Shown here one piece after another: positions 5,638-53,755 of a stretch of 64,000 nucleotides of DNA. The stretch covers positions 10,608,190-10,672,189 of the forward strand of contig OZ020518.1 of NCBI GenBank assembly GCA_963971425.1, read 5' to 3'. The DNA comes from Bryoerythrophyllum caledonicum. Its lineage: Eukaryota; Streptophyta; Bryopsida; Pottiales; Pottiaceae. The number at the start of each line of letters is the position of its first letter. Position 1 is the stretch's first letter. Made by a program: the position numbers and the translations under genes. A model generated the notes under the pieces. It saw only the letters and a program-made list of their open reading frames with translations, was not told the origin of the DNA and did not search any database.

Positions 5638-6106
5638 TGCTAGACGCAAGCACCCAGAGCAGGATTCCGATAACCTCACAGCGCGAAAAACCGCTCAGAT
5701 TCCTCGGATCACACCTTAATCAGCTCTAGACAAGGGTTTCTCACACAGCCCTCACAACAAAGAAAAATTCCTCAGATGGCCACGATTGCTCAGATCTCAC
5801 AAGCAGCAGGCATCCACAGCTCTAAACAAGTATTTCTACCATCTCACAACACGAAAAACTTCTCACATTGCAACGAGTCTTCAGATTTCACCCCGAGGCA
5901 AACCCCAAAAAACATCCACAGCTCCAGATAAGTATTTCTCAAACCTCTCGCCGTTACAAACGGAGGGCCACAAGCGACAGGCGAGGGGAGGAAGTCACCA
6001 CCAACAGCACGCTCGACGCACAAGACAGCGACATCCAGGGAAGTGCCGTGACCCGTTTCTCCCTGTCTTTTCACATCTTCTCTCGAATAACAGAAGTCAG
6101 TCCGCA
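5638..6106 (-). promoter_or_regulatory. Conserved 5' flank of F-box A
   Basis: About 470 bp upstream of the A start, strongly similar to the 5' flanks of B (9602-10090) and E (38860-39335), and partly to C, D and F. Landmarks are 'ctgagcgatttttc', 'gagaaaccc', 'ttgtgagatctgagcaatcgtggccatctgagga' and 'gtttgtaacggcgagag'. Probably 5' UTR plus promoter. I could not fix a TATA box or transcription start. Confidence 0.4.
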
Positions 6107-6810
6107 TCCTCTTCATTCAAGTGGATCTTTGGAAGCCGTCGATTAGGTTCTAATAAATCAAGAACTATCTTTTTTGCCATATTCAATAATCAATTTAGAT
6201 TATCCTCATTTATAGAATCATAAAACATATTCCGTTGTGTCTTTTATCTTTATTGTTGTCTACATGTTGATAGGACAATGAGTGGTGTGTTTGTAGTTTG
6301 ATTTATAGGGTAGTGTAAATCGTTCTAACGTGCTCAATGATACATTTGTTTTTCTTGTAGCAAAGTTGCGCTTTGGCTTTTCGCCATCTCTAAATGTATG
6401 AGGTTATTTTTTAGAACTACCATGCAATTATAGTTTATTCATTGAGAAGCCTTTTGCAGATTTTCAATTGTAATGTTTTGAAGGAATTGAAGTCCGTTTA
6501 CAGGATGAAATGGAATAATTTAACGTACGTGTGTGTATTTAAATGGTTTTTTATCTGGAAAATAGAAAATCTAATGGTTCAATGTTTCATCGTGGCATTT
6601 GTAATCCATTGAACCAAATTTTGGAATAAAATGTATTTATGTTTGTGCACAGGTAAGTTATTTTTGCTCACTGAGGTCCCTTTGATTCAAGTTTGTATCG
6701 AAAGTACTTAGAAATTGAACTGATTGGGACTGTTTTATTTGGAAGCATTTTTATAACCATATTGGTAAGAAGATTACTGTTACATTCACCGTGAGCTAAA
6801 AATATTTCAT

Positions 6811-8089: not shown

Positions 8090-8371
8090 ATTTTCAAGGG
8101 GCCTTGCAGACACTACATGCACAAATAGTGCAGACTTTTTGAGTTCACATACACCAATCACTCAAGGCATCAGGCTGATCGACGGAACGATGCTCAATGG
8201 AAGATCGTGGCGAAAAAGAAGCAATCATATTGAAAAAGAAGCATTCATATTGGAAAGCAAGCAGTCAATTCTAGAATTTGTAAAGTATGTTCGTATCACT
8301 GAATCGACAAAGATGAATGTGGTCTTTCACTCGAGGAATGTGATGAATGAGGACATGCACAGACTGAAGTC
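8090..8371 (-). repeat. 3' flank of the F-box B unit
   Basis: Sequence downstream of B ('gcaaggcatcaggctgatcg', 'aatggaagat', 'tttcactcgaggaatg') is shared with the 3' flanks of C (13605-14210), D (32310-33125) and F (41313-41881). The duplicated unit is therefore larger than the coding sequence. Confidence 0.65.
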
Positions 8372-9601
8372 TCATCGAGCATCCCCCTCGAGCTGCAGGT
8401 TGCGCGAGTTGGACGCGCTTGCACCATCACCTGATTCGTGAGTCCAGGATGTACTGCTCGGCAGCTTCAGGTGCATGGCCTTTCCATACCACGTCCGAAA
8501 CGCCGTGGACCCCTCCACCGCAGGATGATCCGGGACCGACTCATCCCACTCACGCGTTCGCAGATCGTAAATCCTCACAGCTCCGCTCGGCTTCCACACC
8601 ACCACAACGCGCTCACCCATACTCACCGCGTGCGCAGAATCCATCTTCAACTTCCGATCCGCGACACCGAACATCCGCTCCACATCCACGCTCACCACCG
8701 CCTCCACCACCCCTCGCTCCAGATGCACCTCGCTCACCTCGTAGATAAACTCCCCGGAGCTGGACTGCTGCCACGCCGCAAGCAGCATGCGGGAGTCCCC
8801 GCTCGCCATCAGCTTGGGGTCTCCGAGAACGCAGCCCAGGATCGCAACGCCGGTGTCGCTCCAGGACGTCCACGCGTCGTAGCGCCAGAGCCAGTGCTCC
8901 GTCGCGTCCAGGCGGGTCTTCGGGATAAGCAGCGCGTAGAGAGATCCTCTGAAGACGACGCTACATGCGACGCACGATTCTTCACCGGTGGGGAGCAAGG
9001 GGAAATCTGCTGCTTCCCGCCACCGCTCGGATCGTGTGTCGTATGTGAGCATCGGTTTATGTACTTCCAACGTGTGGGGGCCGGACATCAGGAAGATCGT
9101 GCAGGCGCGACCTGTGACTGCCATGTCCACTTTGAAGTCCCCGCCTTTGTAGCGAAGCGGCAGGGAAGGTAACCTGCGGGGTTCGTAACCTACGGGGTTG
9201 ATGAGGGAGACGAAGTTGCCGAGATGATCTTCCAGGACATAGCAGACGAGCCCGCCGTCCATGGCCACGTTGTCGGAAGGGATCATGTAGTACGCTGGCG
9301 AGTCGATGCACGGGATGGTGTACCATCGCTTCGAGTGCACGTCCAGGATACTGTAGCCCTGGTTGTCCTCATAGTCGATATACCCGTCCTTATACGCGAG
9401 TAAGTCGAGCACGGATCCTTTGATCGTCCAGCGCGCGACGACATACTCCTGGGTTGCGCGGTGGAGGAAGCCGGGGTCGCAGATGAGGTTGTTCCATCTC
9501 CGGCAGACGGTGCGGAGCCTGAAGAGGGCGGGGGTTGAGAGGAAGGAGAGCGTGCGCTCGAGGAGCTCCTGTGGGAGGTTGCGCCATATCTCCGAGTCCA
9601 T
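8372..9601 (-). CDS. F-box/kelch-like protein B
   Basis: Predicted 409-residue SCF substrate-receptor-type protein. An F-box lies near the N terminus (IWRNLPQELLERTLSFLS...VCRRWNNLI), followed by the same kelch-like region as A, C and E ('LTYDTRSERWREAADFP', 'VRIYDLRTREWDESVP'). The start is the ATG before DSEIW, the position conserved in the family. Compared with A and E the C terminus is extended: the shared ending '...HESGDA' is replaced by '...HESGDG' and about 16 further residues because the family stop codon is altered. The frame is intact. It is in the same orientation as A but clearly diverged from it. Its 5' flank is the best match to the 5' flank of E beyond the duplication edge. 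Substrate unknown. Confidence 0.86.
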   Translation of the reverse strand: MDSEIWRNLPQELLERTLSFLSTPALFRLRTVCRRWNNLICDPGFLHRATQEYVVARWTIKGSVLDLLAYKDGYIDYEDNQGYSILDVHSKRWYTIPCIDSPAYYMIPSDNVAMDGGLVCYVLEDHLGNFVSLINPVGYEPRRLPSLPLRYKGGDFKVDMAVTGRACTIFLMSGPHTLEVHKPMLTYDTRSERWREAADFPLLPTGEESCVACSVVFRGSLYALLIPKTRLDATEHWLWRYDAWTSWSDTGVAILGCVLGDPKLMASGDSRMLLAAWQQSSSGEFIYEVSEVHLERGVVEAVVSVDVERMFGVADRKLKMDSAHAVSMGERVVVVWKPSGAVRIYDLRTREWDESVPDHPAVEGSTAFRTWYGKAMHLKLPSSTSWTHESGDGASASNSRNLQLEGDAR

Positions 9602-10090
9602 TGCTGGGCGCAAGCACCACAGCAGATTGCCTTAACCTCACAGCGAGAAAAATCGCTCAGATTCCTCGGATCTTACCTTAATCAGCTCTAGACAAGGGTT
9701 TCTCACACAGCTCTCACAACAAAGAAAAATCCCCAGATGGCCACGATTGCTCAGATCTCACAAGCAGCAGGCATCCACAGCTCTAAACAAGTATTTCTAC
9801 CATCTCACAACACGAAGAGCTCCTCACATTCCCAAGAGTCGTCAGATTTCACACCACAAAGCATCTACAGCTCCAGACAAATATGTCTCAAAGCGCTCGC
9901 CGTTGCAAACGGAGGGCGACAGGCGAGGGGAGGCGGTCACCATCAACAACACACTCAACGCACAAGACAGCGGCATCCAGGTCAGTGCCGTGACCCGTTT
10001 CTCTCCTTTCTTTTCACAACATCTCTCTAATAACAGAAGTCAGTCCGCGTCCGGTGAGCCCGCGCCCGTTGACCTTTGCGGCCAACAGAT
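9602..10090 (-). promoter_or_regulatory. Conserved 5' flank of F-box B
   Basis: Shares the A and E upstream sequence, and extends to 'cggtgagcccgcgcccgttgac', which is also present beside E at about 38870. Likely promoter and 5' UTR. No individual site can be assigned. Confidence 0.4.
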
Positions 10091-11849: not shown

Positions 11850-12437
11850 TTAGGCCTGGGACTTACCCGATCCTGTCACGATCTTCAACCCCCGCCTTTG
11901 TGCACTTCCCGCTCTGTTCCCATTTACATACAAAAGCGAAATGAATTGATGGTTCGGGAGTCGTTTGTTGTTTATTTTTGGTGAGGACGGTGATGTTATG
12001 AGGATGGAGCTGTAGGTTAATTGCTTTTGTGAGATCGGATTTGTAGAGTTTTTTGATGTGATGACGGAGTTTTGTGATGTTGTGAGGACGGAGGTGTGGA
12101 GTTTGTGACGTCTGTAAGGCCCGCCGTGAGGTTTTCTGAAATATTTGTCTGCGGCTATGGATGCATTTTTGGTGATTGCCTCGGGGTGAAATCTGAAGGC
12201 TCGTAGCAACGTGAGGAGTTTTTCGTGTTGTGAGATGGTAGAAATACTTGATTAGAGCTGTGGATGCCTGCTGGTTGTTTGATCTGAGAAATCGTGGCTA
12301 TCTGAGGAATTTTCTTGTTGTGAGACCTGTGAGATATCCTGTGTCTAGAGCTGATTAAGGTGAGATCCGATTAATCACGCTCAATCTGAGCGATTTTTGA
12401 GGTTCAAGAAATCTGCTCTTGGTGCTTGCATCTAGCA
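11850..12437 (+). promoter_or_regulatory. Conserved 5' flank of F-box C
   Basis: Nearly collinear with the inverted segment 43043-43640 upstream of F. Landmarks are 'ttatttttggtgaggacgg', 'gttatgaggatggagctgtaggttaattgcttttgtgag' and 'ggcccgccgtgaggttt'. The proximal 250 bp also resemble A, B, D and E. Probably promoter plus 5' UTR. Confidence 0.45.
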
Positions 12438-13604
12438 ATGGACGACAAACTATGGCGCAAACTCCCAGAGCACCTCCTCGACCACGTGCTCTCTTTCCTC
12501 TCAATCCCCGCCCTCTTCAGACTCCGCACCGTCTGCCGGAGAGTGAACGACCTCATCCACAACACCGGATTCGTCCATCACGCAACACAAGAGTACGTCG
12601 TCGCGCGCTGGTCGGCCGTATTAAACGACGAGTTGGAGGAGGAGAACTATTATCAGTACTTTTTGACGCAGGGCTACAGCTTCCTGGACGTGCACTCGAA
12701 GCGATGGTACACCATCTCGTCATGCATCGAGCCACCGCTCGAATTCCGAGAAGTAGGCGACAGCGTGGCCATGGACGGCGGCCTCGTCTGCGATGTTGTC
12801 CTAGATGTTGATGACAGCATTTTATTCTTCCTCGCCAACCCCGTAGGTTACGAAACCCGCAGGTTACCTTTACCGCTGACTTCTTACAACGGCAATGTCG
12901 AGATGAGAGTCGACATGGCAGTCGCAGAGCGCACTTGCACGATCTTCCTTATGCCCGGCCGACCCAGGGACGAGTCTCGACATCCCCCGATGGTTACGTA
13001 CGACACAACATCCAACCAGTGGCGGACAGCAGCAGATCTTCCCTCGCTCCCCACCGGTCAAGAATCGTGCGTTGAATGCAGCGTCGTCTTCGGAGGATCT
13101 CTCTACGTGCTGCTTATCCCGTTCGCCAAACGGGACGCGACGGAGCACTGGCTATGGCGCTACGACCTCTTGTGCTGGAGGGACACCGGCGTTGCGATAC
13201 GCGGCTGCGTTCTCGCAGACCCGAAGCTGATGGCGAGCGGGGGTTCCCGCATGCTGCTTGCGGCGTGGAAGCAGTCTAGCTCCGGGGAGTTTACCTACGA
13301 GTTGAGCGAGGTGGATCTGGAGCGAAGGGTGGTGGAGGCGGTGGTGAGCGTGGACGTGGATCGGTTGTTCGGCGTTGTGAATCGGCGTCTGGGGTCTGTG
13401 CACGCGATGAGCATGGGTGAGTCCGTGGTGGTGGTGAATAAGGCAACCGGAGCTGTGAGGATTTACGATCTGCGAACCGGTGAGTGGGATGAGTCGGTGC
13501 CGGATCATCCTGCTGCTGCGATGGAGGGGTTCGGGGAATTTTTTACGTGGTATGGGAAGGTCATGCCCGTGAATCTGCCGAGCAGTACACTCTGGATTAG
13601 GTGA
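12438..13604 (+). CDS. F-box/kelch-like protein C, C-terminally clipped
   Basis: Predicted 388-residue F-box protein: F-box at the N terminus (LWRKLPEHLLDHVLSFLS...VCRRVNDLI), then the kelch-like region ('VTYDTTSNQWRTAADLP', 'VRIYDLRTGEWDESVP'). By family it is an SCF substrate adaptor. The start is the conserved ATG. Note 'VCRRVNDL', where the other copies have Trp in this F-box position. An 8-bp deletion near the end changes the family ending 'LWIHESGDA' to 'LWIR' and stop, removing about five residues; F carries the same deletion. The rest of the frame is intact, so the product may still fold. It lies head-to-head with B across the captured-exon region. Confidence 0.86.
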   Translation: MDDKLWRKLPEHLLDHVLSFLSIPALFRLRTVCRRVNDLIHNTGFVHHATQEYVVARWSAVLNDELEEENYYQYFLTQGYSFLDVHSKRWYTISSCIEPPLEFREVGDSVAMDGGLVCDVVLDVDDSILFFLANPVGYETRRLPLPLTSYNGNVEMRVDMAVAERTCTIFLMPGRPRDESRHPPMVTYDTTSNQWRTAADLPSLPTGQESCVECSVVFGGSLYVLLIPFAKRDATEHWLWRYDLLCWRDTGVAIRGCVLADPKLMASGGSRMLLAAWKQSSSGEFTYELSEVDLERRVVEAVVSVDVDRLFGVVNRRLGSVHAMSMGESVVVVNKATGAVRIYDLRTGEWDESVPDHPAAAMEGFGEFFTWYGKVMPVNLPSSTLWIR

Positions 13605-14210
13605 TGCTTGAAGCGTGTCCAACTTGTACAACCTGAAGCTCGACGGTGGATTTCAGTCTGCATGTGGAACGCATCCATTATGCACCACCTCATACAATAC
13701 ATTCCTCAGGTACCCTTTGCATGTGTCTTCTTTTCAAGCGAAAGACCGCATGTTCGTTTTTGTCAGTGATTAGCAGTACGAGCATAGTACTTTACAAAGC
13801 CTAGCAGCTGGATGCTTGCTCTTTCAATAGGTTCACAATCTTCCAATGCTCCTTCCGTCGATCAGCCTGATGCGTGGAGTGATAGGTGCATGTAAACCTA
13901 AAAAGTCTGCACTATTTGTACATGTTGTGTCTGCAAGGCGTGTTGAAAATCAACTGGAACCAAACTCCTGGTTAGACAGCAGAGGGCTTCGAGACACGGA
14001 TCAGTAGCATGGCAGCCTCTTGACAAGGGCCTCTAGATCACTTCCTGAATAACCTGTTTAAAACAAGTGCAAAACAAGATGACTAACCAACATGGTTATT
14101 TTGCAACACATGAGGACAAAAGTGTTCATTGCCATAGCTGAACCTGAAATGAATCACTTCTAGGAAAGCGGCCAAATTGTGTACCAATCCAAAGAAGAAA
14201 ACCATTGTCG
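13605..14210 (+). repeat. 3' flank of the F-box C unit
   Basis: Matches the 3' flank of D (about 32310-32880) over roughly 600 bp, including 'aaaacaagtgcaaaacaag', 'gactaaccaacatgg' and 'gtgtaccaatcca.agaaga'. It shares shorter parts with B and F. This shows that whole units of 2 kb or more were duplicated. Confidence 0.65.
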
Positions 14211-15654: not shown

Positions 15655-16449
15655 GGTCAAAATAATTCTTTGTTATTTGCATGGTAAGTTGTTTAACAAT
15701 TGAACGTATCTTTCATCTTCTTGTTGGCACATTTGATCTATGAGTACTATGTTGTTTTGACATAACATATGTTTTTCAAAAATCCTTGCTATCATACTCT
15801 TTTGATTTCTCTTTGTAAAGTGAATTATTGGTTGTATATCTTGTTTATATAATGGGGTATTTTTAATAGTGGAGATGGGATAAAATTTCCCAAAATAAAT
15901 TTCCATTTTTTTATATTCTTGAAAACATGCCAATGAGACCAACAAGCCTAAGAAGCGTAACAAGCTTGACCATTCATATTTACAGTTCTTTGGAAATATA
16001 GAGAAAGCAAGTTAGGCTTATGAAAGTTGTATAATCTGTGAATATTTGTCAATGGTTGTATTTGGATTTGCCATGTGAGGAGCACAATCCATCATAGGGG
16101 AGCATGCATGAGGATAATGCTTTGCAATCAAGTGTTGACAACAATCCGGAAGTGGTGATTACTATTGCAAGAGATTTCATGTCCTTTTCTAGGAAGATGT
16201 TGGATTCTTCTAAAATCAATGAGTTGCTTTGTCGTCCCTGGCAGGGAATCACTTCGATCTAAGAGGCGTCTTAGGAGCCGGGAGCGTCTTTGTGTACTCA
16301 AAGTTTTCTTACTAAATTAGAAGAAGTTGCCCAAAATTAATTTCATTTTCCTATACAGATTAGAGATATGTATTTTTTTTTTCTCATTTGGATTTTCTAG
16401 CTTTAAAAAAACCATGAACCTTTGTTTTCAACATTTAAATTTTTTGTCA
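15655..16449. other. AT-rich region, nothing recognised
   Basis: Short open frames only, with no domain resemblance. It separates the Tourist-like MITE from the left end of the gypsy-like element. Confidence 0.45.
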
Positions 16450-16809
16450 TGTTCGGCGCGTTGGAGGATTTGTGCAGGTTGGTTTATGGGTTGTAAACCA
16501 ACTAGGAGGTTAAGTGGCCAAAGGAAGACCTCGATTCTAGCTCTAGTTGGTAATTAGAGCTAGTATTTGAGTCTTTTGACTTTTAGGGCATTGGTGGTGT
16601 ATTTTGACACCTCATTTGAAACTTGGAGTCCAAATGACCTCCACGTGTAGTTGAAGGAGACTCATCTTTCTCAAGTTGAGTCTCCCATGTGATGGAGTGA
16701 GGGAGTGCGTGCGTGCGTGCGTGCACTTTGTTAGCTTCATTGTTATTCTACGATCATTCTTTAAGAATGGCATTGACTTAACTTGTTGTATGTTTACAAG
16801 TGGATTTCA
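16450..16809 (+). repeat. Left LTR-like direct repeat of the gypsy-like element
   Basis: Direct match to 26212-26567 over its full length, from 'gttcggcgcgttggagga' to 'gtttacaagtggatttca'. It starts TG and ends CA. The 4-bp length difference is mostly one unit of a 'gcgtgcgtgcgtgc' microsatellite. It may be only the 3' part of the original LTR, because the right copy is preceded by a 240-bp block that is missing here. Confidence 0.75.
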
Positions 16810-17214
16810 CCTGATTATTACTTGAGAAAGATCATCACTTTGATATGGGTGTAGTCTTAGTGGATTTTTAACTCTTAAAACCCTCAAAGTCTTGTGTTTA
16901 GAGTGTTTTTAGAGCTTTGTTTGAGTGCTGATTTTTTTGCAAGGATTCAAGCTTGCCTAGAAGGGAATGGATGAAAGTTAGAGACAAGGTTAGAAGAGGT
17001 GGTGGAGAGCAAAACAATGGACATAGAGTTGGATGATGTTCCGTTGACACTTACATCATCCACATGAAGTGGGAGTCGTCATCTAGATCCACTTTTGTAA
17101 GAGGTTGATGGTTGAGGAGGAAGATGGACGTTGGCAATTGCGTCGTGGAGGGAGGGGTTGGAGTGCGGGGTACGTAGAGGCGGTGCAGTATGACGGTAAG
17201 TAGGTTGGACGAGT

Positions 17215-17546
17215 CGAGGACGAATCCACTTCTGGGACCAGCACGCTAGCGCTTCAGGTCCACGGTTTCACTCAGAGCCTTGGCCTCGACTTTCTTGATG
17301 TCATAGCTCTTGCGGCGCTCAAGAAACTCTTCCCGGTAGCGTGAAGGCTACACGTGCTCAATACGTACATGCAAACGCTTCTGAATTATCTTGTTTCCAA
17401 CTTTTTTGTTCATGACGATGCCAACGGCGCGCTTCGTGACATTCCAGACGATGCCAGTGCGACCATGGTAGAACTTGTGCAGCATGTCTTTGTGGATAGT
17501 GTTGTTCACCTTGATGTCGACAGAGTCGCCGATCTTAAAGGAGGGG
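17215..17546 (-). pseudogene. Ribosomal protein eL21 pseudogene
   Basis: Minus-strand translation gives an uninterrupted match to the central part of large-subunit ribosomal protein eL21 (RPL21), including '[18 protein letters not shown]' and '[16 protein letters not shown]'. A TAG follows where Gln is expected (17348-17350), then 'PSRYREEF', 'VEAKALSETVDLKR', another TAG (17246-17248) and a degraded C terminus. The N-terminal 35-40 residues are missing, and there is no intron in the matched part, so a processed copy is plausible. It lies antisense in the leader of the gypsy-like element, either transduced by it or inserted independently. It cannot encode a functional protein. Confidence 0.85.
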
Positions 17547-17549
17547 GTG

Positions 17550-18499
17550 GATCACTATTAGGTGGCCAGAATTGGGATTAGCATGGAGTAGCAAGTGAGA
17601 GAGACGATTTCGTTTTTGGAGGTTGTTACTTTGGAGGTTCCGTCGAATTCTCTGATGTTGTTTTGGTATTCGAGGCAACGGCAGACCGATGGAGCAGCGG
17701 GCCCCGACCAAGACGAGTTGTGAGGTGTGTGTGAGGCGTCCACGGAGTACGGTGGTGTGTCTGATTTGCGCGTGCCTAGGTGTGAGCGCTTCTTGTCCCG
17801 ATCTCAAAAGTGTTTGCGGATCTGTGCGAGCGTTGTTTGCGGTGAGGGTGGTTTTTGTACGAGGCAAGCGCTGCTAGGCATTGCAGCGTGGAAGAAGTGC
17901 AAGATGAGTGGACGAGGCGAGCAATTGGAATCAAGTTCGGCTGGAGGCCTAGGGTTTGTACAGTGGAGTGAGAGCCTTCTACGTGTTTGTTTTCGAGCTG
18001 GAACAGAAGGACACACTTTCCATCTAGTTTTATTCAATTTGCAGTCTAACCAGGTTGTACCACTGCTTGGTTGTATTGTTGAAAGCGTTTTCTTTGAGCT
18101 AGATCGGCAGGTATCCTTATTTGGCAGGTACCCTAACCCGGGCAGTACCCTTCGCCGTATCAATTTTTATATTCCGTACCCGTATTCAATATTGGTATGG
18201 TATGTGTATCCACACCCGTACCTCGATGTGTCTGGAAATTAGCAGCAATTGTGTATACACTAGTGATTCACTATGGTAGAGTTGGTTAGTTCACAATTTC
18301 GTTCACACTCGGACCGTGGTGTAGGGAGGTGGATGGATAAAACTCGATCACAACGGACGATATTGGATCCCTCATTTAAGTGACTCTTCCTTTGTTTTAA
18401 TTTCATTTATTTGAGCTGAATCTAGGGAGATGAATTGCTGAACGATCATCCAAGAAGATTGCCATTGAAGTGTATTCGGTTTCAGTCAGACCATGGACC
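17550..18499 (+). other. Leader region between LTR-like repeat and gag
   Basis: Contains a 171-codon plus-strand open frame (17727-18242) with no recognisable domain. I see no primer-binding site matching initiator tRNA-Met. Probably untranslated leader or remnants of captured sequence. Confidence 0.35.
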
Positions 18500-20278
18500 A
18501 TGACTAGAAGAGGTAAGACTAAGAAATCCGAGGAGACTAGTGTGTCAAAGGTGGAAATTAGTAGGGAGGTGTTGGACACCTTGATCTCGTGTTTAAAGAG
18601 CCTATAAGTGAAAGGCTCTCACTCCATGGCAAGTGATAGTGGTAGGGACACAAGTTCTCTCCCGTAGCCAAGTCCCACACGGGCTCTCAAGATTTATACA
18701 AACCCGACACTAAGGTTTTGAGTGTGGAATCTATAAAGAATTGGACTACTTTGGATGGAATTCGTAAGATTTGAGGACTTCGGGCAAAGGACGGTGTCCT
18801 TGCACCATTGTGCCGCGCTCGAGGTCTAGTGGACACTAAGGACTTGGTGATTGCGGGAATGGCAGTTGTGTTGAGGAATTTTGGATCGATGTATACCATG
18901 GAAATGGAGGATTTTTCTCAAGGTATTGAATTACCCCCATTCTCTCTCATCTTCACTAAATTTAAGAGTGAAGGCTTCGCGTTCTACAGCACGTGGCAGT
19001 GGGAGGTAGGCACTTGGAGGGAACGGGCTAGCAGTGTGTGGAACACAGTTACCTTGAAATTGCTCAACCGAGAAGTGTTGTCTACCATTTACGCACCGGA
19101 GATGAAAGGCACCCATGAAGCATGGAGTTACGTTGAGTAAATCACTTAACTCTCAACCTGGATACGCAGAAGGGTCCGGTTTCACTCAGAGAAACACCTT
19201 CTTTGCAGTCGGTGTCCTTGAACAGGTGTTGAAGGATATTGTCACTCACCAGGAAGAGGTAGAAGGTCCAATTTTACCATTGATGGAAGAGGAAGAACTT
19301 TTAGACAAACATGAGGTAGATGTTGTAGGGCATTTTTGGGTGTTTAAAGGGAGCTCTACTAGCAAATTATGGAGAATTTGAGGAGGCCCATTTTCCAAAA
19401 ATTATGGCTTGAAGAGACTTCTACGCACCAAACTACGTGGATGTATTTGGTAGAGCACCGGGTTACATCACCACTTCTGTCTAAGGGGAAGAAGGAGGAA
19501 GGCACGAGCACTGTGGAAGATATGGTGCAACCAGAAAAGCTCGTAATCTATCCACCCCCATTCAACCCCGCAACTAGGTTTTTTGTGCAACTTAATAAAG
19601 ACTATCAAAGGCAAAGGGCGGATAAAATAAAGGCCCTTCGTTCCTTCACACGAGGCGGTGACGAGTCTCTAAGAGAGGCTCATATAAGAATAAGAAGACT
19701 TATTTCAGCCACTCGCGGGGTCCAGAACAACAGGCAATGCAACATTGGTATAGTATTATGGACAAGGAATTGAAGACCTTGATTTGCAATAAGGCATTGC
19801 GATTGGGGGTGCCAACTACACTACGGTTTTGATTTTGAAACCTCGGAGCACATTGAGATCAATTTACTAGAAGACAAGGCAGCCATGGAATTTCTCAAAC
19901 ATGAAGAGATGGTCCCGGAGAAGGTTAAGGTGGCCAAGGTGGCTCTTCCTTCCTATACCGCGGACACGGGTGCCTTGTGCTTTAAAGGTGGAAAGCCATG
20001 ACATCAGAGGAAAGATTGTAAAGAAGGTAAGACTTCCACACCTCAAGCTGGAGGTTTCTACTCTGGTTGTGGTGCCAAGGGACACGCGGAGGCCAACTAT
20101 TGAAAGCTTCATCCGGAGTTAAAGCCTTCCGAGAGCAAGGAAGCTAAAGCAGGAGGCAAGGAGAAGGAGTCCAAGCCAGTAGAAGAGAATAGAAGAGTTG
20201 GAAGGCTAAATTTGCGGAGTTGGAGGCAAAGATGGAAGCAATGAGTGTCAACACTACTGTGAAAGCTGACAATCCTTA
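18500..20278 (+). pseudogene. Ty3/gypsy gag remnant with two degenerate zinc knuckles
   Basis: The capsid/nucleocapsid gene of the element. A likely start ATG at 18500 (MTRRGKTKKSEE) is followed by a stop after about 35 codons, and the remaining gag is spread over three frames. Around 19570-19790 is a retrotransposon-gag signature ('KIKALRSFTRGGDESLREAH', 'RRLISATRG'). Two nucleocapsid CCHC knuckles follow. At 19978-20019 the second Cys is Gly and a TGA interrupts the loop. At 20059-20100 (YSGCGAKGHAEANY) the first and last Cys are Tyr. Gag would package element RNA; this one cannot. Confidence 0.78.
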
Positions 20279-20318
20279 AGTAACTCCTAATTTTCATGTT
20301 GGGGGCGACTTTAGTTCC

Positions 20319-21236
20319 GTGGATGATGAATTTGAAGACTTCATGTTGAGTGGCATGGCACTTGCCATTAAGGATGGCACACGAGAGGTCTATGCCCTTA
20401 CACGGAGCCAGACCCCAGTTTCCAAGGACGTTCCACTCGGAGCTAGTGCAACTCTAGATCTTCAACATGGAAAGGATAACCGGCAAGCACGGTTGCTCCA
20501 GTCCTTCACGTTGGAGAAGATGGTATCCACGTCGTCTATGGTGCCTCCACCACAACCGGTGGCGACATCCAAACAATCCTTACTACGAGTTGGAGGGCAC
20601 ACGGGAGTTCGTGAGGAAATTATGGAAGTAACAACCTCCATATGCAAAGCTTTTTTGTTTTCTGCTAAGGTGTTGTCACATTATAACTTTAATGTGGCAG
20701 AGGTTTTTAAAATGACGGCCTCAATGTGTGAGTTGGACAACTCTACGGGTGTCAATGTGTTGAAGACGGAGGTGATCGAGGTAGAGGTAGAGAAGAGCCA
20801 GAGTTACAACATGGACGAGCTCCATTCAGCAACCATGCGTGTGAAGAGAATGGCCGCCAGACCTATAATCGAGAGGTCATCCATTACACCTGGTGTGGTG
20901 GTGGTTGACAATTTCCAAGGTATTTTCCAACTTATTGTGCCAAAGGGAAGGATTTTTGTACCTCAACGTGTGCTTTTGGATTTAGGAGTTCAACCTTTGA
21001 TACTCGGAGCATCCGCTATTGAAGGGTTGGGTCTGACTGGGGATACCCTGGAGAAGTGTCCATGGACAATTAACATGTCCATGGGGGGTCAAAGCACACT
21101 ACACGCATCACAAGAGATGGGCGGAAGGCTCAGCTATAAGCTCAATTTGTTCGAGTTCTTACTAGTAATCTTGCTTATGTATTTGCCTTCTCTAGATGTT
21201 GAATGTGGAATTTTCATGGTTTCATGCAAGTTTTGA
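20319..21236 (+). pseudogene. Retropepsin-like protease region of the gypsy-like element
   Basis: A 305-codon open stretch. Its C-terminal third matches the retroviral-type aspartic protease core: 'GRIFVPQRVLLDLGVQPLIL' followed by 'GASAIEGLGL'. The catalytic Asp-Thr/Ser-Gly is Asp-Leu-Gly here (about 20979-20987), which should abolish activity. The N-terminal two thirds are an acidic linker with no known domain. It directly precedes the methyltransferase domain. Confidence 0.72.
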
Positions 21237-21500
21237 GGATTCCCCTGTTGTTAACCACACTTCACAGTAAGTGGATGTCCACATGGGCAACACGATTGTT
21301 GAAGAGGCAGAGTGATCATATCAACATAGGATTTAGGCGGTGTGGAGCAACACCATCTAGTTGAGGCAGGCCGCAGAGTTAGCAGTGGAAGAAGCATAGC
21401 AACATTCTATGCTACTACAGATACAACATGAGCCCGGAGTTGAGCAAGACTTGGGCCTCTTTTGGAGACTTCTACCATCCATTGGAAGGCACCAACGGAT

Positions 21501-22440
21501 GAGATTGTGTTGTTAGAGCTCTTTGGAGGAATTGGCACAGAATTTGCAGCTTTTTTATAAGAAGGGATCAAAGTCCAGCGCTACATTTACATGGATGTAG
21601 ATGAAGTAGTAAGGCATGTGGCCAAACGTCACTCACGGAGACTGAGGACACAATTTCCAAAAATTTTAGCCACTAGTGCCATCAAAACTTTTTTCTCTAC
21701 ACTTGTGGGTGATAATTCCTTGCTATCAGCGATGACATTCACCATGTGGGTCATGTTGACCTTGTTATTGCAAGATGGGCTTGCCAAGGCATGTCTATGG
21801 TAGGCAATCAGAACGGGTTGAAGGACTCCCATTCTTCCAGATTCTTTGACATGATTCGAGTGCTACGGTTGCTTCAAACTTCTCAAAAGCAACCGCCACG
21901 TTATAATGTAGACAACGTGGTGGTGGTGAGCAGTTCAAGGTCCAGAACATTGGAAAGTTTGCACGGCATCCATCAGACCCTGAATTTGCTAGTGTTAATT
22001 GATGCAGCTACAGTGGGGTCTAGACCACATCGACCACGTTTGTGGTGGACAAACCTGGTACCAGTAGAGTTGCTACAGTCCACGGTGGGTCGCATTAAAC
22101 GGCCGGATGTGTATGTGAGTGATATTCTAGATTCTTACAAGACACTACGACGTGTGTATCACGATGACCAAGCATCTTTGGTGGTGGTTAACCGAAAGGA
22201 GAACCACGTAGGGCCTTGCCCACGTTGGTTAATTTTGCAGTCTTATGCTTTCAAGGATAAAGGATTTGGGCTTGTATGGGATTACTTGTCACACAAGATG
22301 ATGGAGCTTAATGCAGATGAGCAAAAGAGAGCCATGGGCTTTCCCATTGGCACCACCAATGTGCCTGGAATTTCATAGCAACAACGACAATTTTATTTGG
22401 TTAGGGAATGGATTTAAGTTGTCTCACTTGGATTGTATTT
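21501..22440 (+). pseudogene. Cytosine-C5 DNA methyltransferase domain (DNMT3-like) inside the retroelement
   Basis: C5-MTase motifs appear in canonical order. Motif I is LELFGGIGTE (21516-21542, AdoMet binding). An acidic motif II-like 'YIYMDVDEV' follows, then motif IV 'ARWACQGMS' with catalytic Cys at 21782-21784 (Pro of PCQ is Ala), motif VI 'VDNV' at 21908-21919 (usual ENV), motif VIII 'RPRLWWTNL' (22031-22057), and a C-terminal 'MGFPIGTT' block (22334-22357) like the end of these enzymes. Order I-IV-VI-VIII is DNMT3-like, not the rearranged plant DRM order. The copy is broken by a TAA at 21558, a frameshift between motifs I and IV, and TAG at 22376. The methyltransferase frame is open for about 210 codons. 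It lies between protease and reverse transcriptase on the same strand, so it was probably part of pol. Confidence 0.86.
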
Positions 22441-22960
22441 TTAGTGGTTGCCAAGTAGAAGCATTTAGCTTCTAGCTTGATTGATTACATGGGCTATAGC
22501 CTATTTGAGTAGCGAGCGGCAAAAGAATCACTTGCCTCTGTTAGGGTGACAAGCAAAGTGGTTGGGGGCGAGAGGGCCTTGGCACCTCATCCATGGAACA
22601 TATGGGATACGGCAAATCTTATTGCAATGCCCAGGCCAAAGGATCTTCACCAAGGGGTGAGATTGGCTTACAAGAGGATGGATTTCGAAGTTGTGGAGAA
22701 GATGTTTGTGGAAGAACATACGGCCTCTTAGAAGTTAGATGGAGGAAATTGACAAGCTTTGACAGATCGAGGGACTTGGAAGCATGATGGGTGTGGGAGG
22801 AGATGAGTCTTCTCCAATTGGCATTCAATAGCAACCAAAGGTGGAGAAGTTTGCTCCAAAGAAACCAATGGAGGCGGTGACCTAGGAAACTTGGAAACCG
22901 ATAGTTGGCCTGGCAGATGAAGTAGTAGAGGCAGAGGAACATGAGTTTCTCAAGGAGTAT

Positions 22961-24587
22961 ATGAATTTCTTTGCATTTAGTTTGCACAATTTGGGAGTAT
23001 TTAAGGAGAAAAAGGTACATATAAACTTGACAAATGAAGCACCAATTTATCTGAAGCCATACAAGTATAGCGATGTAGAACGAAGGTTGATTTGTGCTCG
23101 TATAAAGGAATTGGTGGCTGCAGGGCTAGTGGAGTTAGCTCCACCGGATTGTGAATATGCATCGGCGACGGTTATGCCATCCAAGAAGGATATCTACAAT
23201 AATTAGACTGAAAAGAGGATGCGTGGTGATTATAGGAGGATTAATAAATTCATTTATGTCCTGACTTAGTGAATGTTATGCCATGCCAACTCTAGAGGAG
23301 AATTTTGAGGCCATTGGTCATGCCAAGGTATTTAGTACGTTGGATTTACGCTCTAAATACCACCAGATAGGACTGAGAGATGAGAACAAGGAGAAGACTA
23401 CATTCTGGGGCATTGCTAAATATGGGAAGGACCGGTTGTTCCAATGAAAGTTCTTGCCATTTGGATTGAAGAATGCATTGGTAGAATTCCAGAGGGTTAT
23501 GGACGGGGTATTCTCGGGCTTGGACTTTGTGAGATGCTACATCGATGATATTATTGTCTTTAGCAAGAATCGAAGACAACATAGACTACACCTGATGGAG
23601 GTGTTTGCTAGATTAAGGCTCCACGGTTTGAAGTTGGACCAAGGTAAGTGCAAATTTTTCTTTGATCATATTGAGTATTTAGGCCACATGATTTATCCAA
23701 GTGGATTGGCTGTAGTAGCTAGCAAGGTGGAAGTGATGATGTCTATTCCTAGACCACGAGATGTTAGTAGGCTACGGGCATTCTTCTGGTTGTGTAACTA
23801 TTATAGAAAGTTTGTAAAAACTTTCAATGCCCTTGCAAAGCCATTGACCATGTTGACAAGGAATTATTAACCTTGGATCTAGAGAGATGAACAAGAGACG
23901 GCCTTTCAACAACTGAAGGACCGTTTGGCATCAATACCGATACTTCGAAGGCCAATAGCAAAGAGGACTTACGAGCTACACACTGATTGGAGCGCGTTGG
24001 AAATTGGCGCGGTGTTGACGCAAACAGATGATGATGGGACGGAGTTTGTGATTGCATATGCCAGTCCGTCCAACAACGGTGCGGAGGCTCTATATAGCTT
24101 GTATGAAGGGGAGTGTTTGGCTACCATATGTGCAATTGCCCATTTCAGATGTTATTTTTTTGGTAACGAGTTTTTGTTGGTGACAGATCATCAACCGTTG
24201 AAGTGGTTTATGGAATCTGACAAGCTAACAAGGAAACTAACGTGGTGGGCCTTGATGTTGATGGAATACGACTTCAAGGTAGTTCACAGGGCGGGATTGG
24301 TGAATATGGATGTTGACGGCTTTAGCCGTAATCCAGTTCCAAACCATGAGGATGTCATAGGCACTAGGTGGCACAGTGAGGGTGAGGCCAATCCATTGCC
24401 AGGGTGGCATTCTTCGGCATTTTTAGGAGTGTTGGCGATGCATGGAGATCCCACCGGGGAAGCTACCGTGGCCATGGTAGATGAGGATGGAGGTGAGGAG
24501 TCTGGGGGCACCAGAGACATCTTCAAAGACACGAACGTGATGCAATTTCTAAAGGATGGAGAAGTTGTACCAACATGGTCAGCTTAG
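22961..24587 (+). pseudogene. Ty3/gypsy reverse transcriptase and RNase H remnant
   Basis: Synthesises element cDNA from RNA. The N-terminal fingers ('INLTNEAPIYLKPYKYSD', 'ELVAAGLVE', 'SATVMPSKKD') end in a stop near 23204. Palm motifs follow in other frames: 'FSTLDLRSKYHQIGL', 'FLPFGLKNAL...FQRVMD', and the active site CYIDDIIVFS (YIDD at 23538-23549, intact). The thumb includes 'CKFFFDHIEYLGHMI'. The RNase H part has 'LHTDWSALEIGAVLTQ', 'YEGECLATI' and 'VTDHQPLKW', so the D-E-D core is present. Stops at about 23868 and elsewhere, plus shifts, make it non-functional. The RT-RNase H-integrase order assigns the element to Ty3/gypsy. Confidence 0.9.
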
Positions 24588-24650
24588 GAGAGAGATTGGG
24601 TCTTATAACTAGCCAAACGATTTGTGTGGTAGAGGACTCTCCTTGTTAAG

Positions 24651-25262
24651 GTGTGGCCGGACGATACGAAGAAGGTGGTGCCGGTTTCAACGGAGAGGGT
24701 GAAGCTAATCAAGCATACACATGAGGATCTTAGACACTTTGGAGTGCGGAGGACCTATAGTTTGCTACAGATTCACTATTGGTGGCGAGGGATGCAATCA
24801 CAAGTCCAAGCATTGGTTGCCCGGTGTATGCTGTGTGATCGTGTGCAAGCGTCTTTTAATGCTCCGATGCCACAATTGCAATCATTGCCAATTATAGGCT
24901 TAGGATACAGATGGAGCTTGGATTTTGCACGACCATTGCCAATGACACCTCGACACAACAAGTATGTGTTGGTGATCATTAAGTATTCCTCAAAATGGAT
25001 AGAGTTGGTGGCCTTACCTGATAAGTTTGGTGAAAGGGCCGCTTATTCTTTTCTTGATCGTATTTTGAGTTGCTTTGGAGCTCTAGCAAAGGTACTCACA
25101 GGCCAAGGCAGAGAATTCTTGGATGAGTTTCAAACGATGTGTGAGCAAGTGATGATTGATCATTGCACTACTTCAAGGGATCATCCCAAAGCAGATGGAT
25201 TGGCGGAGCGCATGGTGCAAACTGTCAAGAGGGGGCTCTGGAAGTACAGCTTGAAGAAATGA
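24651..25262 (+). pseudogene. Ty3/gypsy integrase with lost catalytic Asp
   Basis: Integrates element cDNA. An N-terminal HHCC zinc-binding region is visible (HTHEDLRHFG, then CMLCD), followed by the core: first Asp in 'WSLDFARPLP' and catalytic Glu in 'KADGLAERMVQTVK'. The second catalytic Asp, expected in a (S/T)D-x-G-x-EF motif, is Gly (LTGQGREF, codon at 25101-25103), so this copy could not integrate. The frame ends at 25262, and the C-terminal part continues in another frame. Confidence 0.88.
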
Positions 25263-25354
25263 CATCACGCAGATTGAGATTTGCAGTTACCGTGGATAGC
25301 AATCGGGATACGTTGCGCTATGCTACAATACGAGGGGGTGGTTATTGACCGCAA

Positions 25355-25744
25355 ATGCGGCGAGTCAAGCCTAGAGACTATGTGTATTTGCAGCAAGCAG
25401 CGCCCACCACCTTGGACTTGACTGCAGGACGGATCATTTTAAGAGTTCGTGAGGTGAAGAAATCATGGGTGCTAGTATTGGAGGGTCGTGATAGTAAGAT
25501 GTGGAAGGATCACATGCGCAATTGTGCACCTTGCCACTTGCCACACATTGATGAGACTATACACCCTAGACTTCCTCACATCTCTGTTGGATTGCATTGT
25601 TGGTTTTCTAATAGTGCCAAATGGGCAGCCACAATGGTTATTTGTGACTTATGTTCTATGGGGTGGCATTTAGAATGCTTAATCCCACCTCTTTTGGAGG
25701 TACCAATGAGTCAATGGTCTTGTCTAGAGTGTATAGCATGTTGA
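25355..25744 (+). pseudogene. Integrase C-terminal tail with PHD finger
   Basis: After a 'KPRDYVYL' SH3-like stretch typical of gypsy integrase tails, the frame contains a C4HC3 PHD finger (25598-25741): C-x2-S, then CDLC, H and C in 'GWHLEC', and finally 'WSCLEC'. Seven of eight zinc ligands are in place; the second is Ser, one base from Cys. 'GWHLECLIPPL' is the classic PHD core. PHD fingers commonly read histone H3 tails, so the domain could have guided integration by chromatin state, as chromodomains do in chromoviruses (inference). A possible further tail, 'EAINDGALLAPNLPF', is encoded at about 25784-25828. Confidence 0.8.
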
Positions 25745-25972
25745 GGGTCTAAGTAGACAAAGTCTAGCATTAAAAATGTATTAGAGGCAATTAACGATGG
25801 GGCTCTACTTGCACCCAACCTACCCTTTGTTTATGGAGTCTTTTAGCGTCTTTTCATGTGGATTACATTGATTCTATGGTCTTGAGAGGTATTCATTCAC
25901 GGTCTCCATTCAGTTGATATAATTATGTGGTTTGCCGGTGTGAAAGGGGCTTCAACACGAGCAAAGTGGGCA

Positions 25973-26810
25973 AGTAAAGGGGTACTTGTAGACCGCTTAC
26001 TACTTCTTGATGTACGGGGTTATGAGTCATTTATTTCTTTTCTTTGAGTCTAGATTGTTGATAGTGTATAAGTGTGTGTTGTTTTATTGTTTAACAGAGG
26101 TAACGTTGGTGATTTTGTCACCATTCCTCTAGATTCATCTCTAACCGTGCACTCTCACATGATTTGTACGATGGTATCTTGGCACGATGCCGTCGTGCAC
26201 GACAACTTTCACGTTCAGCGCATTGGAGGATTTGTGGAGGTTGGTTTATGCGTTGTAAACCAACTAGGAGGTTAGGCGGCCAAAGGAAGACCTAGATTCT
26301 AGCTCTAGTTGGTAATTAGAGCTAGCACTAGAGTCTTTTGACTTTTAGGGCATTGGTGGTATCTTTTGACACCTCATTTGGGACTAGGAGTCCAAATGAC
26401 CTCCATGTGTAGTTGAAGGAGACTCATCTTTCTCAAGTTGAGTCTCCCATGTGATGGAGTGAGGGAGTGCGTGCGTGCGTGCACTTTGTTAGCTTCATTG
26501 TTATTCTGCGATCATTCTTTAAGAATGGCATTGACTTGACTTGTTGTATGTTTACAAGTGTATTTCACTTGTTTCAGTAAAGGGATACTTGTAGACCGCT
26601 TACTACTTCTTGATGTACGTGGTTATGAGTCATTTATTTTTTTTCCCTAAGTCTAGATTGATGATAGTGTATAAGTGTGTTTTGTTTTATTGTTTATCAG
26701 AGGTAACGTTGGTGGTTTTGTCACCATTCCTCTGGGTTTATTTCTAACCGTGCGTTCTCACATGATTAGCACGATGTTACCTTCGCATGATGCGGGTGTG
26801 CAGAACATTT
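25973..26810 (+). repeat. Partial tandem duplication around the right LTR-like repeat
   Basis: A block of about 235 bp beginning 'agtaaaggg.tacttgtaga' occurs at about 25973-26205 and again at about 26575-26808, on either side of the right LTR-like repeat. Each copy is preceded by a purine-rich 'agtaaaggg' that could be a polypurine tract. This suggests a tandem LTR structure or an unequal-exchange product in which the full LTR was this block plus the 356-bp repeat. Confidence 0.65.
26212..26567 (+). repeat. Right LTR-like direct repeat of the gypsy-like element
   Basis: Partner of 16450-16809. The initial TG is CG here, and the end is 'tatttca'. Substitutions scattered along the pair indicate an old insertion. 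Confidence 0.75.
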
Positions 26811-27869
26811 TAAACCACACAAGAATGAATAGATCTATTAACAAAGCGTGGATTTGCTGACTTCCAAACATCTTTTCATTGCATAATAATTTTGAAAATG
26901 CTTTACTTCTTTAATATTTATTAAAATTTGTATACATGGAGCTAACATTACATACATTGTAACAATATGAAATTTATATTTGTTTTGTGCAAACTTTCAA
27001 CACCAAGTTAAGTCTTCAAATCCTTATTTTATAGTAGAAAGGGAACTTTTTTTCTTCACTTTAAACATTATAATCTCTCAAACCAAGGATTCAATAATTC
27101 TAAAATATTGGTAGAATGTGGTTCACCTGGTGCAAATCCAAATTTTACGATTGAAAACGTAGAGAATAAATTAACTTGCCTAAAAAATAAAATCAACGTT
27201 GTATGAGTGCATGTGACCAAGCAATTGCAACCACCATCACTCATCTATATGATGGCATTGTAGAGATTGTAAAAAAATATCAAGTTCAAAAGATTATAGA
27301 TGATGGAAAGGAGGGAAGAGAGGGTGAACAAATGAAGGTGCACGTGAAATAGAAGGTTGTAGAGAGTGAAAAGCAAGGAAGGGAGATGGTATTATAAGGA
27401 CGATTGTTGATGACCGCATTGTATGGAGAGGCCTTCGAAAGGCAAAGGCCAACCTTGGATCTTTTCCAAAGCTTATATACACTAACATGAGTGGCAATAT
27501 AATGATCTGTTCGGAGCTCTTTGCATTGGATTATTTGCACTAAATGTTGTTATAAACTTGGATTTGACTTCAATTTGTTTTGTAATTTCCTTTAAATTGC
27601 CTAATACATATTTGAAGTAACATTCATATACTTTTGAAATAGCATTGTTCCACTCATGTATTCAAAATTCTCTTTTTTTATGGATGTTGTCAACATTTTT
27701 ATATAAGAAGACTACATTATGAATTTTACGAAAAAATCAAAATTTACAATGATCCATTGTTCAAATAGATTATTTTTCCAAACTTCAATCTCTGCTTTAA
27801 CTTGCTCTAGTTCTCAAAAAATTGGAAGCAAAACATTTCTAGATGCTTGTAATGGATCTCTATTATGGT
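26811..27869. other. AT-rich region with an R2 fragment
   Basis: No gene recognised. An inverted fragment of repeat R2 lies at about 26890-27080 ('caacaccaagttaagtc', 'gctttacttct'). The remainder is unassigned. Confidence 0.45.
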
Positions 27870-31379: not shown

Positions 31380-31705
31380 AGTTGCAATGAAACACGTTTC
31401 ATTAGATTAGGATCCCCGTCAAACTAAGATATATATTTTGGTGTTTGCCTTGGGGTGAAACATCAAAAATATATCTGAAGACTCAAAGCAATGTGAGAAG
31501 TTTTCTGTGTTGTGAGATAGTAGAAATACTTGTTTAGAGTTGTGGATGCCTACTGGTTGAGAAATCTAAGCAATTGTGGCCATCTGAGGAATTTTCTTTG
31601 TTGTGAGAGTTGGGTGAGAAATCCTCGTTTAGAGATGATTAAGGAGAGATTCGAGGAATCTGAGCTACTTTTAAGGGAATCCTACTCTGGGTGCTTGATC
31701 TAGCA
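31380..31705 (+). repeat. 5' flank of the F-box D unit
   Basis: Matches the upstream sequence of E, A and C ('tgccttggggtgaaa', 'gtgttgtgagat.gtagaaatacttgttta', 'gcaattgtggccatctgaggaattttc'). Confidence 0.6.
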
Positions 31706-32309
31706 ATGGACGCCAAGGTATGGCGCAACCTTCCATACCAGCTCTTCCAGCACACGCTCTCCTTCCTCTCCATCCCTGCCCTCTTCAGGCTCTGCATCGT
31801 CTGCTGGAGATGGATCACGACCCTGGCTTTGTCCACGGCGCAACCCAAGAGTACGTCGTCGCGCGCTGGGCGGCCCGAGGACACGATGAGGCGTTCAGGG
31901 AGGACGGGGAGAACCTCAACGAGAACCAGGGCTACTGCTTCCTGGACGTGCACTCGTAGGAATGGTACCCCTCCAGTGCATCAGGCCACTCGATGGCAAT
32001 GACTTTGGCATTGTCGACAGCGTGGCCATGGACAGCGGCCTCGTCTGCTATGTCCTAGTTTCTGAATACGGCAACTCCTTCCACCTCGCGAGCCCCCTGC
32101 TAAAACTCTCCCGCAGGTTACCTTCCCCGCCGCAAACTTTCTGGACATTTCACGGCGTGGGGAGATTCTTATTTGTTTGTCTATGAAGGGGTTGATGTGG
32201 TATCGTGCGCCGTAGGGATTCTCGGGGTTTCAGATGTGGTATGAGAAGGCCATGCACCTGAATCTGCCGAGCAGTACACTCTGGATACACAAATCAGGTG
32301 ATGCTTGAA
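31706..32309 (+). pseudogene. F-box/kelch-like pseudogene D
   Basis: Starts with the family ATG and an F-box (VWRNLPYQLFQHTLSFLS), but is disabled three ways. A 10-bp deletion within the F-box (near 31812) shifts the frame. A TAG replaces Lys in the 'VHSKEW' block (about 31957-31959). A large internal deletion removes nearly the whole kelch-like region, joining sequence equivalent to the middle of the gene to its last 25 codons ('HLNLPSSTLWIHKSGDA' and stop at about 32309). Flanks on both sides match the other F-box units, so it arose as a full unit and decayed. Confidence 0.9.
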
Positions 32310-33125
32310 GCGTGTCGAATTTGTGCAACCCGAAGCTCGAGGGGAAGCTCGATGGGATCTCAGTCTATGCATGTTCATTATGCATGGCCTCATACATGAC
32401 ATTCCTCAATTACCTCTTTGCACATATTTTTTTCAAGTGAAAGACTGCAGTTATCTTTGTCATTAATGAGCAACACATTCATACTCTACAAAGTCTAGTA
32501 GCTGCCTGCTTGCCCATTGATATGATCTTCCATAGCGCCTTCCGTCGATCAGCCTGATGTGTTGACTGATTTGTGTGTGTGAACCGAAAAGTCTCCACAA
32601 TTTGTACATGTAGTGTCTGCAAGGTGCGTTGGAAAGTAACTAGAACCATGGCAGCATGGCATCATGACAGCCTCTTGATAGAGAGCCTTCTTGAATAAAC
32701 TGTCTAAAACAAGTGCAAAACAAGGTGATAACTAACAAGGTGACTAACCAACATGGTGGTCTTTGCTGAAGATGAGGACAAAAGTGTTCATTGACATAGC
32801 TCATCAAACCTAAAACGAATTATTTCTAGGGGAGGGGGCAAAGTGTGTACCAATCCAATGAAGAAAGATTACCCTCCAACATCGGATGCATACATAGCAA
32901 GGTTACCTTTTTTTAGTCTAGATTAAGTCACAAGTGACAGAAAGAAGAAGAGTTTGAAACCACGACTCACTATCAATATTGCGAACAAGTCTCTCCAGAT
33001 CCGAGCCTGGAAAAACAAGCACGAGTCAAGACTCGCGACAACCTGAAATATTCAAAGCAGCATGACAATTTTCATATTAGATACTCTACAAAATCGTTGA
33101 TATGTGGCATCACCTTGAAGTGCAT
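32310..33125 (+). repeat. 3' flank of the F-box D unit
   Basis: The first 570 bp match the 3' flank of C. The segment 32930-33125 matches 41315-41520 beside F in inverted orientation ('gaaaccacgactcac', 'aatattgcgaacaagtctctccagatcc', 'gcagcatgacaattttcat'). Confidence 0.65.
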
Positions 33126-51394: not shown

Positions 51395-51595
51395 GATAAG
51401 CCTGCCATGTCCATGGTCAGAGAAAAACTTGCATTCATCCTTGATGTGTACTATGGCAACCCTATTCTCCGTAAGTTGTGAGACTGAAATGAAATTTCAT
51501 CTCAACTCTGGAACGTACAGCACGTTTTTGAACCTGAGCAGGGATGTGGTATCGTTCATATGAGCATGAACAATAATGTCACCAATACCTCTTAC

Positions 51596-53545: not shown

Positions 53546-53683
53546 CTTGGGATCATTCACGGCAGGTGTGTGTAAGTGGCTCTTATTTACGCTTGGGATC
53601 ATTCACGGCAGGTGTGTGTAAGTGGCTCTTATTTACGCTTGGGATCATTCACGGCAGGTGTGTGTAAGTGGCTCTTATTTACG
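53546..53683. repeat. 46-bp tandem repeat, three perfect copies
   Basis: The unit begins CTTGGGATCATTCACGG and ends CTCTTATTTACG. Three identical copies are followed by a five-base start of a fourth. Perfect identity implies recent expansion. Confidence 0.95.
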
Positions 53684-53755
53684 CTTGGATATATGTTGTT
53701 AAGAGGAGGATTTTTCTTTTCATATATGGATTTTGTTTTGACATCTTTCCTGTAT

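Follow-up and report, generated by a model that had tools for sequence, protein, structure and literature searches.

A 64,000-nucleotide stretch of Bryoerythrophyllum caledonicum DNA (contig OZ020518.1, positions 10,608,190 to 10,672,189; hereafter the window) holds what is probably a dead copy of a recently active, gypsy-type retroelement family in which a methyltransferase (MTase) of the DNMT3 type is a standing component kept by selection. Within this explanation, the identity of the element and the integral place of its MTase are practically certain. An earlier note, made from the letters of the window, had described C5-MTase motifs in canonical order, on one strand with a protease upstream and a reverse transcriptase (RT) downstream. 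Motifs, Pfam matches and alignment bear this out, placing the motifs at 21516-22378 of the + strand, with remnants of protease and RT on either side. The order gag, protease, MTase, RT, RNase H, integrase also stands; the split repeats, 4-bp duplications, conserved stop and PHD finger had been overlooked. The copy consists of the following parts, ORF denoting an open reading frame:

16441 to 16444: left 4-bp target site duplication, TTTT
16445 to 26807, + strand: the entire retroelement copy, decayed, running from TGTC to ...GAACA (repeats, alignment to a natural copy)
16445 to 16816, + strand: repeat A1, 93% identical to A2 (repeat match from 16447)
18494 to 19137, + strand: ORF1 remnant, its natural relative without a Pfam family
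19169 to 20175, + strand: gag part of ORF2, a remnant with a zinc-knuckle region
20187 to 21089, + strand: linker and aspartyl protease remnant, DSG changed to DLG
21450 to 22399, + strand: DNMT3-type methyltransferase from motif I onward, in two frames and with one early stop (motifs, Pfam, PDB, alignment)
21516 to 21542, + strand: MTase motif I, ELFGGIGTE
21782 to 21784, + strand: cysteine codon of MTase motif IV, ACQG
21911 to 21919, + strand: MTase motif VI, DNV
22016 to 22057, + strand: MTase motif VIII, GSRPHRPRLWWTNL
ending before 22378, + strand: MTase AMGFPIGTT
22829 to 22831, + strand: conserved TAG stop, then CAA CCA, between MTase and RT
22832 to 23870, + strand: RT remnant (Pfam, alignment)
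23883 to 24587, + strand: RNase H (PF17917, PF17919)
24633 to 25262, + strand: integrase with zinc-binding and DDE core domains, TGQG in place of TDQG
25616 to 25732, + strand: PHD finger 3' of the integrase (PF00628, E = 2.7e-6)
25973 to 26204, + strand: repeat B1
26209 to 26574, + strand: repeat A2
26576 to 26807, + strand: repeat B2, 88-90% identical to B1
26808 to 26811: right 4-bp target site duplication, TTTT

Alignment to a natural copy reveals stops and frame changes throughout the window copy. Its MTase is interrupted by an in-frame TAA at 21558-21560, is split over two frames that change over between 21725 and 21731, and has lost motif residues that its relatives keep (PCQ to ACQ, ENV to DNV). 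Because motif residues of the MTase, protease and integrase are gone and stops are many, we judge the copy, by its sequence, to be dead. The RT, RNase H and integrase pieces score above the Pfam cut-offs, the gag piece matches weakly (E 0.019, below the cut-off), and the protease is visible solely through the alignment; each of these is collinear with the MTase. The 220-amino-acid (aa) open piece of the MTase in the window reached 21.6 bits with Pfam DNA_methylase (E = 1.7e-4), narrowly below the 22-bit cut-off, and its 373-aa counterpart in a natural copy reached 48.7 bits. In a PDB search, the 220-aa piece gave weak matches to HhaI and DNMT3A.

The domain is widespread in the genome (437,360,962 bases in 894 contigs). 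With the MTase piece as query, we scored the best 150 of 1706 candidate places, the window included, and thus count at least 149 further ones, which share 68-76% identity with the window piece. An open frame of more than 1300 aa is present in 26 of the 150 rows, four of these with a stop within the match. Ten copies, picked for long open frames, were read in detail. ORF1 is open over 216-220 aa in seven of them and overlaps ORF2 in another frame; no classical slippery heptamer for a -1 frameshift between the two was found by eye. ORF2, with the MTase at its end, is open over 1371 aa in eight copies and over 1364 in a ninth, and is broken in the tenth; ORF3 (1041 aa), which lies beyond a stop in the same frame as ORF2, is uninterrupted in three. 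Searches of one natural copy against Pfam gave a zinc knuckle and DNA_methylase (9.6e-13) in ORF2, with gag and aspartyl protease weak and below their cut-offs; RT, RNase H, the zinc-binding and core domains of an integrase and a PHD finger (2.3e-9) in ORF3; and zero domains in ORF1. Neither PWWP nor ADD was among the families matched by its three frames. The element thus reads ORF1 / gag-zinc knuckles-protease-MTase / TAG / RT-RNaseH-integrase-PHD, and the family is abundant, large, young and recently active.

The window copy by itself would be compatible with a fragment of a host methyltransferase that landed in one gypsy copy. The copy survey refutes this isolated insertion and leaves it with next to no probability. 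With ORF3 as query, the best 44 of 7881 candidates were scored (95-100% identical); an MTase match lies upstream in 42 of them, and the DNA of the other two, when read, carries the MTase in shifted frames. All 44 scored RT-integrase copies therefore have the domain, although the pairing used 82 of the 150 MTase rows and unscored candidates may differ. Copies whose MTase is open and stands between protease and RT, which the earlier note had named as confirmation, are present in number, and family copies lacking the domain, which would have spoken for an insertion, did not occur among the 44. Two further observations argue against the insertion: homologues sit in an equal place in Marchantia and other organisms, and the MTase is under selection.

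This selection is purifying and similar to that on the RT. Among 29 MTase loci (window excluded), 24 are open over 654 bases, and for the open ones the ratio of nonsynonymous to synonymous change (dN/dS) was 0.39, 0.33, 0.19 and 0.15 in bins of rising dS; these and the following ratios are pairwise values among related, best-scoring rows and are not independent. The RT gave 0.36, 0.19, 0.18 and 0.13 (17 rows; the bins hold 105 of 136 pairs, four of them in the last bin, and the remainder are saturated, for instance by a row out of register). The 1500 nucleotides upstream, spanning the end of gag, the protease and the start of the MTase (12 rows), gave 0.50, 0.39, 0.33, 0.25 and 0.15, the fifth bin being four pairs. 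From the long open stretch in the window, the earlier note had supposed selection on the domain until fairly late; the selection is seen, but the open stretch does not imply late function of the window copy, whose domain lies in two frames.

The MTase of the element is predicted to be a cytosine methyltransferase of the DNMT3 type. In the natural copies, motifs I to X are unpermuted, unlike in DRM, and on this motif order a DRM origin was rejected. In the PDB, the MTase matched DNMT3 at 6.6e-11; the values were weaker for HhaI (2.1e-6), the best DRM-type chain (0.00031) and DNMT2 (0.014-0.016), and the DRM chains aligned to query residues 46-173 only. With DNMT3 scoring better, a DNMT2-like or bacterial origin was rejected. 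DNMT3 is also the closest solved fold among the matches listed, so both sequence and fold matches agree with the DNMT3-like rather than DRM-like character proposed at the outset; the absence of DRM chains from that fold listing carries no weight. The natural copies share with the catalytic domains of DNMT3A and DNMT3B the fold, the motif order, the catalytic cysteine and the glutamate of ENV, at 24% identity across 278 residues.

Relatives of the domain are found well beyond this genome. The MTase part of natural ORF2 was matched by at least 53 proteins (7995 candidates scored), from Marchantia polymorpha (45-56% identity), Calypogeia fissa (56%), Sphagnum (40-43%) and Closterium (38-41%), together with many metagenome proteins; none was named as from Klebsormidium nitens. 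The Marchantia proteins are public, mostly as hypothetical, one of them bearing a methyltransferase name. At least 11 of the 53 are ORF2-like (P0128-P0130, P0132-P0134, P0138, P0139, P0141-P0143), with 1248-1376 aa, signs of a protease or zinc knuckle and of the MTase, and no RT motif, and Marchantia P0169 has a C-terminal PHD finger as well. REM1 of Chlamydomonas, a gypsy-type element, has its PHD finger in a separate ORF of reverse orientation; we know of no MTase in it. Some gene models, which may be faulty, weigh against the arrangement proposed here: in P0167 of Closterium and ena P0154 a single chain bears both MTase and RT, and in P0159 and P0166 the MTase stands between RT and integrase, in P0159 downstream of RNase H. 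Together with P0161, these last two, whose MTase follows RT/RNase H and precedes the integrase, represent a second architecture. The 120 proteins listed in a first protein search had at most 91% identity to the 30 loci compared, most genome copies lying outside the comparison, and this ceiling suggests that they come from other species or lineages. A plasmid search returned zero matches, and the sole match in viral contigs was weak (L051, 38%, query residues 288-343).

The genome itself contains a second family, with at least two loci (L073, L074) whose MTase is about 55% identical to that of the first; a genome-wide Pfam search scored the best 123 of 1056 candidates. The domain order of L073 is that of the first family and its stop reads TAG CAA TCA. 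The 3' end of L073 (L075) consists of B1 (106 bp), GACA-GC-TGTC, A2 and B2, and shares with the 3' end of the first family a short stretch ahead of B1 and 14 bases, nothing more. In an MTase tree whose root, a human fragment of 167 letters with filler, is weak, the first family grouped with liverwort and Sphagnum elements (98/91), the second with unnamed sequences (100/99), and P0159, P0166, P0160 and P0161 formed one clade (87/93). Judged from the distant second family and these groupings, the element lineages either are ancient or have passed from one host to another.

Between MTase and ORF3, the codons CAA TAG CAA CCA are present in the window and in nine of the ten fetched copies, namely those that keep the region. 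In a wider set of 24, TAG CAA CCA was found in 18 and TAG CAA TCA in one, with two shifted by indels and three lacking the motif. In plants, CAR-YYA after UAG is a leaky stop context, and we think it very probable that the TAG here is leaky. If so, the MTase would be part of the Gag-side product and would be made, along with Gag and protease, in the large amounts typical of Gag. That the TAG merely ends one protein, with RT and integrase made through re-initiation, splicing or a second RNA, seems improbable to us: the frame stays open past the TAG, and the CAR-YYA readthrough context fits in two distant families. Two predicted Marchantia gene models (P0145, P0144) that join MTase to RT with the junction omitted are in favor of such a plain stop.

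The earlier label of Ty3/gypsy fits the domain order and fails on the long terminal repeats (LTRs), in place of which there are split repeats. Eight of the ten copies and the window have the layout A-body-B-A-B without LTRs, and two copies stop at B1, without A2-B2. In the eight, A measures 363-370 bp and B 233 bp; with the A1/A2 and B1/B2 comparisons pooled, 22 of 4816 sites differ, none of them in two copies. All 11 copies examined (the ten and the window) are flanked by perfect 4-bp target duplications and have TG...CA ends, which in the family read TGTC...GACA. At their internal B1|A2 junction, seven of the eight copies have GACA-GC-TGTC, a palindrome in which two bases join the right end to the left end, and one has GT in place of GC. 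Retroviral integrases trim two bases 3' of CA, and for this reason the GC may represent what is lost from a processed end. No tRNA primer site was seen, TGG being absent from the first 60 nucleotides past A1 in seven of eight copies, and no priming model follows.

We located these junctions throughout the genome, allowing up to three mismatches. B|A was found 84 times and A|B 108 times; reversed-sequence controls gave zero matches genome-wide. Pairing, which covered the 84 B|A and 100 of the 108 A|B sites, placed an A|B one A downstream at 67 of the 84 B|A sites, and the opposite order, in which a B|A lies one B downstream of an A|B, occurred once, within a tandem B-A-B-A-B. One locus (L058, G000:C12:23034380-23036000) has its 3' end lengthened to B-A-B-A-B. 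Among the 100 listed A|B sites, 33 are unpaired. Of six that were read, three proved to be solo A-B units, equivalent to solo LTRs and flanked by 4-bp duplications; the other three have a divergent left part, with the duplication not found.

The 67 to one asymmetry bears on the possibility that these are ordinary LTR elements with B-A as the LTR, the integrase cutting their two-LTR circles at one B|A to give A-body-B-A-B. Random opening predicts both orders, so the counts speak against it, and we give this model little credence. It has points in its favor, since a one-LTR circle opened at that site would give A-body-B, as found in two of the ten copies, and the B|A palindrome GACAGCTGTC could be opened symmetrically by an integrase; A-body-B is also obtainable by B1xB2 recombination. 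With the split repeats taken as the element's own structure, its classification is mixed. Ty3/gypsy elements are described as having 4-6 bp duplications and TG...CA ends (PMC12440569), and both are found here, as is the order protease-RT-RNaseH-integrase with an integrase of the rve family; two full LTRs are not, A forming the left end and B the right, and the gypsy assignment of the RT is one made by Pfam matches. Ngaro elements are described with split direct repeats A1-[ORFs]-B1-A2-B2 (PMC8547959, PMC12440569). In the accounts drawn on, Ngaro, PAT and DIRS elements use a tyrosine recombinase, in contrast to the rve integrase, TG...CA ends and 4-bp duplications here, and ORF1-ORF3 of one natural copy encode no tyrosine recombinase. 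The elements are gypsy-like at integration and DIRS/Ngaro-like in their repeats, and strict members of neither.

The nearest known kind is KnitGypsy-Dnmt3 of the alga Klebsormidium nitens (de Mendoza 2018, PMC5890265), the sole precedent found, and the suggestion that the architecture was new to green plants has to be withdrawn on its account. As far as its published text goes, this element has gypsy domains and an intronless, canonical-order Dnmt3 in the pol region, is under purifying selection, and has a repeat structure that the legend of Fig. 4 equates with DIRS. It thus resembles the present family in its DNMT3-type domain, which here is collinear with gag, protease, RT, RNase H and integrase in many copies, and in the A-coding-B-A-B layout. 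The MTase is described within the Pol ORF there but lies 5' of the conserved stop here, and the 150 scored places, mapped ends with 4-bp duplications, PHD finger and land-plant relatives go beyond that text; the comparison is with the text, not the sequence, and the figure may show some of the differing features. The same source describes SymbioDIRS-Dnmt3 of Symbiodinium, a Dnmt3 inside an A-coding-B-A-B retroelement that acts on CG in yeast; it encodes a tyrosine recombinase, in contrast to the DDE integrase here. Another paper, citing de Mendoza 2018, assigns the DNMT3s of retroelements to Copia and DIRS families of streptophytes and dinoflagellates (PMC12344493). Such elements were not found in passages of PMC6453930, PMC9033089, PMC12477816, PMC9516144 and PMC8616336, and the literature searched, figures and supplements aside, gave no account of DNMT3-carrying retroelements in land plants.

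As a mechanism, we propose that the MTase is packaged in the particle and would methylate new cDNA or a fresh insertion, while the PHD finger may read histone tails and steer the integrase. The 3' junction GACA-GC-TGTC would keep both DNA ends adjacent, so that ends missing from the RNA could be rebuilt from B1|A2 before the integrase processes CA|GC. We lean toward this end-storage role of B1-A2, and put forward self-methylation as the selected function more tentatively. The enzyme could instead act on the host, silencing rival elements or host defence genes, or marking the element's own copies so that they stay quiet and tolerated. The selection on the enzyme itself and a gag-side position, which would yield much protein, are evidence for such action, and host-beneficial and host-wide roles are discussed in the text of de Mendoza 2018 (PMC5890265). 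According to the same text, K. nitens, which bears such elements, has a plant-like methylome, and we regard a host-acting enzyme as rather unlikely.

The elements could form a separate retroelement class, an idea we hold with reservation: one without LTRs, replicating through split repeats with a 3' end-storing palindrome, integrating by a DDE integrase, and expressing at Gag level, via a leaky stop, a DNMT3 that is under selection in diverse, old lineages from charophyte algae to bryophytes. Plants silence retrotransposons through cytosine methylation, and if this idea is true, a plant retroelement would write the very mark that normally silences its kind. A selected methyltransferase of the de novo type in a retrotransposon raises the question of how the mark benefits the element. 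The green-plant precedent found is one alga; the present family is young and abundant, with relatives in the model land plant Marchantia. The combination of DIRS-type repeats and a DDE integrase straddles the usual classification of retroelements, and it makes the split-repeat copying scheme testable.

A full C5 methyltransferase elsewhere in the assembly (L061, C14:16016358, around G000:C14 16016358-16017317; 218 bits) was rejected as a host gene. It lies within a large contig beside a reading frame that by eye resembles an IS-type transposase, and its DNA looks bacterial, probably through contamination or misassembly. In the window, the leader of the retroelement copy contains an antisense remnant of ribosomal protein eL21 (17351-17551, - strand; PF01157, 2.5e-26), and a blastn search with window 16800-19400 found no counterpart of this stretch in the ten other copies. 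Local repeats occur on both strands at 4114-6109, 8351-10081, 11863-13944, 31473-32648, 38857-40830 and 41535-43599, 75-93% alike where compared; their reading frames resemble one that carries an F-box (PF00646) and weakly matches kelch, for which a protein search returned zero relatives at 1e-5. Remnants of a copia-type gag and RT lie at 49298-52504 (- strand), and a 46-bp unit is repeated in 3.1 copies at 100% identity at 53546-53688.
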